DNA of 34,571 nucleotides from Clostridia bacterium (GTDB lineage Bacteria; Bacillota; Clostridia; UBA1212; UBA1255), in contig JAFZSK010000071.1 in NCBI GenBank assembly GCA_017620915.1, positions 1-34,571 on the forward strand, written 5' to 3'. Each line of letters begins with the position of its first letter. The stretch's first letter is position 1. Shown here one piece after another: positions 17,610 to 20,179 of this stretch. Under the pieces are notes generated by a model. That model was not told the origin of the DNA and did not search any database. It saw only the letters and a list, made by a program, of their open reading frames with translations. The position numbers were made by a program, and so were the translations under genes.

Positions 17610-18293
17610 TCAGCAGCAGATCACCGGTCCGAACGGTCCCATGCAGAACGAGGAGCAGAAGCAGCAGTCGCGCAGCGAGACACAGTAATCCTGTTCGGAA
17701 GTGCTTTCGCGCGCTCTGCGGTCGTATTCCTCCGCGGCGCGGCGGTAGTATTCGGCTTTGGAACGGAAGGTCTCGTTGGAGGGATCCATTGCCGCCGCGG
17801 TAGTGTAGCAGTTGTACGCACCGGAGTAGCGGCCGAGGCTCTCGTTGACCACGCCCATAAGATAGTACCAGACCGCGTCCCGCTGCGCTTCCGGTATGTT
17901 GTTAAGAGCGATATACGCCTGGAAAATGTAGCCGCTGCGGATCATGCGCACGATCTCGGCGTAGCGCTGATCGTTGGCGAAGCCGTCCTCGCCGGCGGTC
18001 GAACTGCCGGACTGTCCGGAACTGTATTGACCGTACGGCCCGTAATAGCTGCCGTAGCCGCGGCCGGCCGACGCACCGGAACTGTAAGAAGCCTCGCTCT
18101 CTTTGCCCGAACGGATCGCCTGTATCTTATCGTACGCGGCGTTGATCTCGCGGATCTTTTCTTCCGCGACGGGCGCCATCGGGTCGTCGCGATAGCGGTC
18201 GGGATGATATTTCTTGACCAGTTCGCGGTACGCTTTTTTAATTTCCTCGTCGGAGGCTGACGGCGACACGCCCAGAACTTTATACGGATCCAT
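17610..18293 (-). CDS. DnaJ-domain protein with cysteine-rich C-terminal tail, 227 aa
   Basis: A J-domain co-chaperone that would stimulate a DnaK ATPase. The J domain fills residues 1-65: [20 protein letters not shown], then KYHPDRY with the HPD motif. A Gly/Ser/Tyr-rich linker follows (about 75-100), then TPR-like helices, and a short tail with seven cysteines in the last 25 residues (ending GPVICC). It lacks the zinc-finger and substrate domains of a full DnaJ, so it is not the general chaperone. Its start lies within the end of the DUF5685 gene (14-bp overlap) with a GGGAGGG ribosome site. DUF5685 and this type of J protein are often adjacent in Clostridia, suggesting a joint function that is not yet defined. 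Confidence 0.85.
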
Positions 18294-19167
18294 GCGTATT
18301 GCCCTCCCGGCAGTGCGCGGTCACGCTACGGTCAATAAAAGAAAGCCCTTCGCCGAACAGATTGTCCATGAATCCGTCCGTATCCGGATCCGGTTTGCCT
18401 TCGTGCAGCTGTTTGAGCGCCTGCCAGCACCTTTCCGCGTCCATGATGCAATGGGTGCGCACCAGCGCGTCTGCCTCCGTTTCCGGCGCGTCGCCGAGGC
18501 GCTCGTTGTAAATATTGAAGTTGTTGCGTTTGCGGTCTTTTTCCCGGTCGTCTGCGGCGTCCGCCAGCATGATCCAGCGGCCCAGCGAGGCGCCCAGCGT
18601 GTACAGCGCGTCGCTGTATCTGCTGGCGATCATTCCGTCAACTGTAAACACTCTGCCGAGGATCTCCGCGAACGGCGCGGTGAAATCGTCAATATCCTGC
18701 GTCCGCGCTTTTTCCAGTCCGGCGAGTTCATCCAGTTTTGCCCGGATAAAGTCATACAGTTCGGGATACGCTTTTCTGGCGCGTTTGACACCTTTGCGCC
18801 AGGCGGCTTTGGCGGCGCGGCCTTTAAGCTTCAGGCCGCGGCCGTCGGCAATATTGTCCTCCGCGGCGCAGGCAGCCAGAATGATATTGACCCGCGCGGC
18901 GTACGAGATACCGGGAGTGTCCTTAAAATACGGATGCGGATGGCCGGGATGCAGCGCGCATCGGCCTTTGACCACGCTGAGTTCGCTGTCCGGCGCGCAG
19001 TAGTCGATGAGCATTGCCAGCACCGCCGCCTCATATGTGAGCGACAGCCGCGAGAACTGCCCGAGCAGTTTCCCCATCGCTTTGCATACGCCGCAATAAT
19101 ATGCCTTGTATTTATCATATTCCCTGATTCTCAGGTTCGGGACGAACGCCCGCGTGTAACCGAAAAT
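18280..19167 (-). CDS. DUF5685 family protein, 295 aa, probable ATT start
   Basis: A DUF5685 family protein of unknown function, common in Clostridia. The first standard start codon (ATG at 19077) falls well inside the domain. The frame stays open upstream and encodes the conserved N-terminus [17 protein letters not shown] and then YYCGVCKAM, including the CxxC. Upstream of that there is no ATG, GTG or TTG before the in-frame TGA that lies inside pfkA. The best start is ATT at 19165-19167, which gives M-FGY as in relatives, with AAGGGG 6 nt away. Further family-like segments are [24 protein letters not shown] and a helical C-terminus. The ribosome site begins right after the pfkA stop, and the 3' end overlaps dnaJ by 14 bp. 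The family call is good; the exact start is inferred. Confidence 0.8.
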
Positions 19168-19180
19168 ATGTATCCCCTTC

Positions 19181-20179
19181 TTACAGTGACAGCATCTTGC
19201 TGGCTTCGATCATATCCGGATCCAGCGTTTTGGTCATATTGAGCGCTTCCTCGATATCGATCGCGATGTACTTCTCGTTCTTTTCCGCTATGATCTTGTT
19301 GCGCTCGCCGTTAGCCAGGACTTCGGTGGCTTTCATTGCCATCAGGCTGGCCGCGACCCGGTCTTTTACCGTGGGACTGCCGCCGCGCTGCTGATAGCCC
19401 AGAATAGTGGCGTTGGTGGAGATGCCGGTGATCTCTTCGATCTGCTTGGCGATCTCGATGGTGCCGCCTACGCCTTCGGCGATGATCACAATGTAGTGAT
19501 GTTTGCCGCGGTTCCGGCAGCCGATAATAGGCTTGATGATATCGGTGTTGATGTCGAAATGCTGTTCGGGCAAAATGCACGCTTCGGCACCGTCGGCAAT
19601 AGCGCAGCTGAGCGCAATGTACCCGGCGCCCCGGCCCATGACTTCCACTACGCTGCAGCGCTCATGGGAATACGCGGTGTCCTTGATCTTATCGATCGCG
19701 TCTTTGACCGTGTTGAGTGCGGTGTCAAAACCGATCGTGTAATCGGTGGAGGCAATATCATTGTCGATGGTCGCAGGAATACCGATCACGTTCATGCCTA
19801 TGCGGGCCAGATCCCGCGCGCCGCGGAACGAGCCATCGCCGCCGATGATGACAATGGCGTCCAGTTTGAACACCTGCGCCATGCGGTAACCCCTCATTAC
19901 GCCTTCGGGCGTCACGAATTCCGCGCTGCGCGCCGTCTGCAGGATCGTACCGCCGCGGCTCATGATGTCAGACACCGAGCGGAGATTCATTTCGTACATA
20001 TCGCCGGACAGCAGGCCCTCGTATCCTTTACGGATTCCGTATACTTCAAAGCCTCTGTATATACCGGAGCGGACCACCGCGCGAAGCGCCGCATTCATGC
20101 CCGGGGCGTCGCCGCCGGATGTAAGCACGCCGATGCGTTTGGGTCTGTTTACAACGTTTTCGTTCTGTTCTGCGCTCAT
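19181..20179 (-). CDS. pfkA: 6-phosphofructokinase, ATP-type, 332 aa
   Basis: Phosphorylates fructose 6-phosphate to fructose 1,6-bisphosphate, the committing step of glycolysis. The N-terminal nucleotide-binding region is GVLTSGGDAPGMNA (residues 17-30). GGDGS at 113-117 has Gly rather than Asp at the position that marks pyrophosphate-dependent enzymes, pointing to ATP use. The catalytic PATIDNDI is at about 135-142, and VVEVMGRGAGYIAL follows. The length is normal for the bacterial ATP enzyme. The start codon overlaps the stop of the upstream FAD oxidoreductase gene (ATGA), with GAGGAGG inside that gene. The DUF5685 gene starts 13 nt after its stop. Confidence 0.97.
   Translation of the reverse strand: MSAEQNENVVNRPKRIGVLTSGGDAPGMNAALRAVVRSGIYRGFEVYGIRKGYEGLLSGDMYEMNLRSVSDIMSRGGTILQTARSAEFVTPEGVMRGYRMAQVFKLDAIVIIGGDGSFRGARDLARIGMNVIGIPATIDNDIASTDYTIGFDTALNTVKDAIDKIKDTAYSHERCSVVEVMGRGAGYIALSCAIADGAEACILPEQHFDINTDIIKPIIGCRNRGKHHYIVIIAEGVGGTIEIAKQIEEITGISTNATILGYQQRGGSPTVKDRVAASLMAMKATEVLANGERNKIIAEKNEKYIAIDIEEALNMTKTLDPDMIEASKMLSL

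Follow-up and report, generated by a model that had tools for sequence, protein, structure and literature searches.

The gene infC is known for its AUU, AUA or AUC start codon and for its autocontrol by IF3. Few conserved AUU or AUA starts outside infC are known in bacteria, and tools that accept only ATG, GTG or TTG cannot place such starts. In Escherichia coli, pcnB has an inefficient AUU start that limits its translation (Binns and Masters, 2002, as reported in PMC13009471). In Staphylococcus aureus, initiation at the AUU of cvfC1 and the AUA of ccpN was established by ribosome profiling and reporters, and reporter constructs with AUU or AUA sites gave about 10% of the expression obtained with AUG (PMC13009471). 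IF3 destabilizes initiation complexes on such codons, and it represses Streptomyces sigR, which has a non-canonical start (GTC) outside infC (PMC5472188).

The window (the whole 34 571-nucleotide stretch of DNA analysed here, from a genome assembled in 121 contigs, G000) carries on its minus strand a DUF5685 gene for which a sequence-only reading had proposed an ATT start (Table 1). When the frame was re-read, the coordinates of the gene, the position of the AAGGGG element and the absence of ATG, GTG and TTG from the in-frame stop inside pfkA down to codon 31 (19077) all proved correct; 14 open codons precede the ATT and the 15th is the stop. The TAA of pfkA (19183–19181) is followed by GAAGGGGATACAT and then by ATT TTC GGT TAC (19167–19156), the three codons after ATT specifying FGY, and the spacer between AAGGGG and ATT is ATACAT. 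The sole other near-cognate codon upstream is an ATA at −2, immediately next to the Shine–Dalgarno sequence. Read from ATT, the protein aligns with PF18937 from the first profile position (196.6 bits against a gathering cut-off of 26.7; residues 1–255 on profile positions 1–250). It had also been pointed out that conserved residues lie upstream of the first ATG, and indeed C25 and C28 are encoded before it, and F2, G3, Y4, Y24, C25 and C28 do not vary among 32 DUF5685 homologues.

Table 1. Positions of the DUF5685 gene, its start site and its neighbours in the window.
Feature	Position	Strand	Remarks
DUF5685 gene	18280..19167	-	295 codons plus stop (18282-18280), start ATT; PF18937 match, frame open
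ATT start codon	19165..19167	-	ATT/ATA at the same codon in 13/15 lineage orthologues; codon-position bias begins here
Shine-Dalgarno AAGGGG	19174..19179	-	6 nt before ATT; anti-SD duplex -9.1 kcal/mol
Nearest upstream in-frame stop (TGA) of DUF5685 frame	19210..19212	-	inside pfkA
First canonical start in DUF5685 frame (ATG, codon 31)	19075..19077	-	not conserved as start
CGVC (C25-C28) within conserved YCxxC of DUF5685	19084..19095	-	32-homologue comparison
pfkA	19181..20179	-	PF00365, 340 bits; upstream neighbour in 15/15 lineage loci
J-domain/TPR gene (dnaJ)	17610..18293	-	PF00226; ATG overlaps the DUF5685 end by 14 nt; canonical start

Inspection of the same codon in orthologues, which had been suggested as a check, found ATT or ATA at exactly this position in other species. 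The pfkA-linked orthologues of the lineage (n = 15; families f1, f3 and f4 of one order) have ATT in nine cases, ATA in four and ATG in two. Within the genus of the window, G005 and G006, whose proteins are 84% and 58% identical, have ATT, and the sister genomes G003 and G004 have ATG; the rest of family f1 has ATT in five genomes and ATA in three, and families f3 and f4 have ATA and ATT. The ATT/ATA start is therefore retained down to 58% protein identity in the genus and to about 30% beyond it. What had been claimed for one genome is thus conserved across a lineage, a stronger finding than the one originally stated. The same counts bear on the suggestion that an ATG had been misread as ATT in sequencing or assembly. 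The two codons differ by a single base and the window genome is fragmented, but ATT or ATA stands at the orthologous codon in assemblies of 12 further species, and as these were assembled separately a base error is excluded, its probability being negligible.

The pattern of divergence places the beginning of the coding sequence at this codon. Among lineage orthologues, the mean difference over codons 2–30 is 0.23, 0.19 and 0.57 at codon positions 1, 2 and 3, and for the 12 triplets upstream of the ATT or ATA it is 0.63, 0.69 and 0.67, i.e. about equal. Conservation at the protein level begins at the ATT codon, which means that truncation to 19077 is wrong. A truncated protein made from the ATG at codon 31 is what the mechanical ORF list reports (18280–19077), but codons 2–30 evolve as coding sequence and encode the six invariant residues, and the next canonical codon occupies different, non-homologous places among the orthologues (codon 5, 6, 8, 22, 31 or 43 in those with ATT or ATA); the coding conservation rules this internal start out, and we regard it as very improbable. 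Hardly more credible is initiation at a non-AUG codon further upstream or a frameshift fusion with pfkA. The window frame is open for the 14 codons upstream, with the ATA at −2 among them, but across the ATT/ATA loci the frame is closed by a stop 3 to 34 codons before the start, in most of them with no canonical start codon on the way, and the region gives no coding signal. In locus L018 an in-frame TGA stands three codons before the ATT and after the stop of pfkA itself, so nothing upstream can feed the DUF5685 frame there, and this, with the lack of an upstream coding signal, rules out the fusion. The ATA at −2, which abuts the Shine–Dalgarno sequence and is absent in G006, was rejected as a start; a TTG is found at −3 in L013 and L014, but it almost touches the Shine–Dalgarno sequence. 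The comparison shows that DUF5685 is translated from AUU or AUA behind a normal Shine–Dalgarno sequence in the window genome and in its lineage, in agreement with the start first proposed.

Beyond the lineage, 105 distinct loci of the class were read, giving ATG in 69, TTG in 14, GTG in seven, CTG in two, ATT in nine and ATA in four, and all 13 ATT/ATA loci fall in families f1, f3 and f4. Where the gene occurs in the remaining families of the order (f2 and f5), it starts with TTG and ATG. For an unbiased count the same 391 genomes of the class were searched with a single pattern (start codon, FGY, fixed spacing, YCxxC), once with NTG and once with ATH as the start, and it matched in 163 genomes with NTG and in ten with ATH, all ten from f1, f3 and f4; ATH was thus present in 10/11 lineage genomes against 0/162 others of the class (Fisher exact p ~2e-15, relatedness ignored). 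A draw of 398 genomes from the phylum gave no further ATH start for DUF5685. The gene is widespread in Clostridia, and on these counts the ATH start is a trait of the lineage, with ATG, UUG, GUG and rarely CUG used elsewhere in the class. The two CTG loci outside the lineage, L030 (G288) and L086 (G112), have strong Shine–Dalgarno sequences (mean −14.15 kcal/mol).

In a maximum-likelihood tree all ATH genes, together with the ATG genes of G003 and G004, fall in one supported clade and two changes are needed, so that the most economical history would be a single gain of ATH and a single return to AUG in G003/G004. The reversal indicates that the weak codon is not indispensable. Third-base changes on the tree are few (about three T-to-A and one T-to-G), and selection for AUU or AUA over mere tolerance is for that reason not proven. 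In all 15 members of the clade, every ATH locus among them, DUF5685 follows pfkA; in f3 and f4 an additional ORF separates the two. At the 33 other loci tested, the 1.5 kb preceding DUF5685 gave no pfkA. By this comparison pfkA linkage and the start-codon switch belong to the same clade. The extra ORF in f3 and f4, seen in L026 (G018) and L027 (G020), is membrane-protein-like. On the other side of the gene, pairing of DUF5685 with dnaJ is found in most loci of the class, even where pfkA is not adjacent, and the J-domain/TPR protein of the window (17610–18293) has a cysteine-rich C-terminal tail.

The strength of the Shine–Dalgarno sequence was compared between start-codon types. The median anti-SD duplex energy is −11.0 kcal/mol at the 13 ATH sites vs −9.2 at the 69 ATG sites, and within the genus the ATG sisters G003 and G004 have weaker duplexes (−8.3 and −6.9) than the ATT sisters (−9.1, −12.0 and −12.2). 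These energies fit a trade-off between Shine–Dalgarno strength and start codon but, with two revertants, are only suggestive; any compensation is modest and the window site is among the weaker ones.

The best explanation of these observations, which taken as a whole we consider probable, is that the lineage has acquired, behind a Shine–Dalgarno sequence, a weak AUU/AUA start that limits translation of DUF5685 within the pfkA operon and against which IF3 probably discriminates. The spacing of the two genes points to a common pfkA–DUF5685 transcript. The third base of AUU or AUA would pair badly with initiator tRNA, whose anticodon is CAU, making initiation weak, so that a glycolytic operon that is presumably well transcribed would yield little DUF5685, with the fairly strong Shine–Dalgarno sequence and the nearby upstream stop perhaps compensating in part. 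As IF3 rejects AUU and AUA, a shortage of IF3 should raise DUF5685 synthesis alongside that of infC, and the first residue should be formyl-Met, giving MFGY as in orthologues. Low and IF3-sensitive synthesis from the pfkA transcript would be the likeliest effect, both properties being extrapolated from E. coli, Streptomyces and S. aureus.

The main rival is a relaxed start, at which ribosomes finishing the upstream gene reinitiate, so that the identity of the start codon is of little consequence and ATT and ATA are tolerated rather than selected. The stop of pfkA (in f3 and f4 that of the inserted ORF) is about 13–34 nt away in most ATH loci, and pfkA linkage and the ATH start mark the same clade, both in favour of this account. 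Yet G005 has ATT although the stop is 70 nt away, and dnaJ, adjoining or overlapping the end of DUF5685, has kept canonical starts. Free drift, moreover, predicts ATC, which makes up 53–71% of Ile codons in the ATT-bearing members of the genus; it was expected in 3.8 of the 13 sites and seen in none (p 0.005 on the assumption, which does not hold, of independent loci). Selection against ATC at this start is suggested by the figure, which ignores shared ancestry, and we judge the reinitiation account unlikely. Returning to an IF3-discriminated start, one may ask whether DUF5685 and infC together form a small IF3-sensed set in which IF3 keeps DUF5685 synthesis down and a shortage of IF3 or of free 30S subunits lifts the restraint; we put this forward tentatively and hold it to be doubtful. 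If true, it would link the state of the ribosomes to an isoprenoid-synthase-like protein encoded in the pfkA operon.

Other genes were examined for similar starts. The infC gene has ATT in the window genome (L006, G000:C47), and ATT or ATA behind GGAGGTG in all 13 matched loci of the order (L006, L119, L126, L130, L131, L133, L135, L137–L139 and L142–L144). The earlier remark that ATT starts are known mainly from infC needs qualifying for the precedents of pcnB and cvfC1 (AUU), ccpN (AUA) and sigR (GTC). In infC of the order, the GTG inside the Shine–Dalgarno sequence is usually in frame and may draw gene callers to a wrong start. Canonical starts are available for pfkA and dnaJ across the lineage orthologues. 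A codon-usage screen of 585 kb of the window genome (~23%), comprising 417 ORFs with a closed 5′ end and blind to genes like infC in which an in-frame GTG overlaps the Shine–Dalgarno sequence, found no other convincing gene with a long coding sequence before the first canonical codon; a genome-wide relaxation of start selection was rejected, DUF5685 being the only convincing case in that screen. In one ORF of peptidase-like sequence (L193, 15195–15800 of G000:C38, minus strand), coding signal is present ahead of the first ATG; the gene may be frameshifted or broken.

The literature searched mentions DUF5685 by name only, an NCBIfam search gave no match, and solved structures searched by sequence yielded no more than short, weak matches to helical proteins. 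An AlphaFold2 model of the protein (18283–19167; pLDDT 90.2) resembles isoprenyl diphosphate synthases (VIA Z 17.5, rmsd 4.0, 251 residues, 13% identity), its PDB matches being nearly all of the all-helical isoprenoid synthase fold among the matches listed; Foldseek gave a probability of 1.0 but an E-value of only 3e-3. The predicted fold thus resembles that of an isoprenyl diphosphate synthase over most of its length. The two canonical DDxxD motifs are not present as such, for which reason DUF5685 was not filed as a trans-isoprenyl diphosphate synthase; in their place the 32 homologues share invariant Asp residues in the arrangement D104xxxD108 and D203xxxD207xxxD211. C70 is also invariant and H73 nearly so, and C25, C28, C70 and H73 could form a putative metal site. 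In the model, residues 1–30 hold most of the first helix (14–35) with the CxxC, all of which would be lost on truncation, and this N-terminus is likely to be missing from automatic predictions in the lineage.

Compared with the described systems, DUF5685 shows no canonical start before a conserved N-terminus, a properly spaced Shine–Dalgarno sequence and a conserved start codon, and by this comparison it is an addition to the small known set of conserved AUU/AUA starts outside infC. It resembles infC in having AUU or AUA behind a Shine–Dalgarno sequence, and in the same genomes, but that of infC is much stronger and nearly invariant (about −14.5 to −15.2 vs −9.1 to −13.7 kcal/mol), and whereas infC encodes IF3 itself, the basis of its autocontrol, DUF5685 is without a known link to translation and therefore has no built-in feedback loop. 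Like DUF5685, pcnB is a chromosomal gene other than infC with an AUU start; it encodes poly(A) polymerase, an unrelated protein, and limitation by the start, experimental for pcnB in the account of it in PMC13009471, is inferred for DUF5685. The S. aureus genes cvfC1 and ccpN share with it conserved AUU or AUA starts in Firmicutes with a good Shine–Dalgarno sequence, and ccpN regulates central carbon flow as DUF5685 is linked to pfkA, but they are other genes and their starts were demonstrated in cells, that of DUF5685 by comparison. With sigR it has in common a lineage-conserved non-canonical start in one gene that is canonical in relatives of other genera; sigR differs in using GTC rather than AUU or AUA, in serving sigma/antisigma balance and in that its IF3 sensitivity was observed. 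Gained once and lost once, linked to pfkA in the same clade and set against canonical starts in the other relatives sampled, the start of DUF5685 offers a well-defined case in which the question of why a weak start is adopted can be tested.
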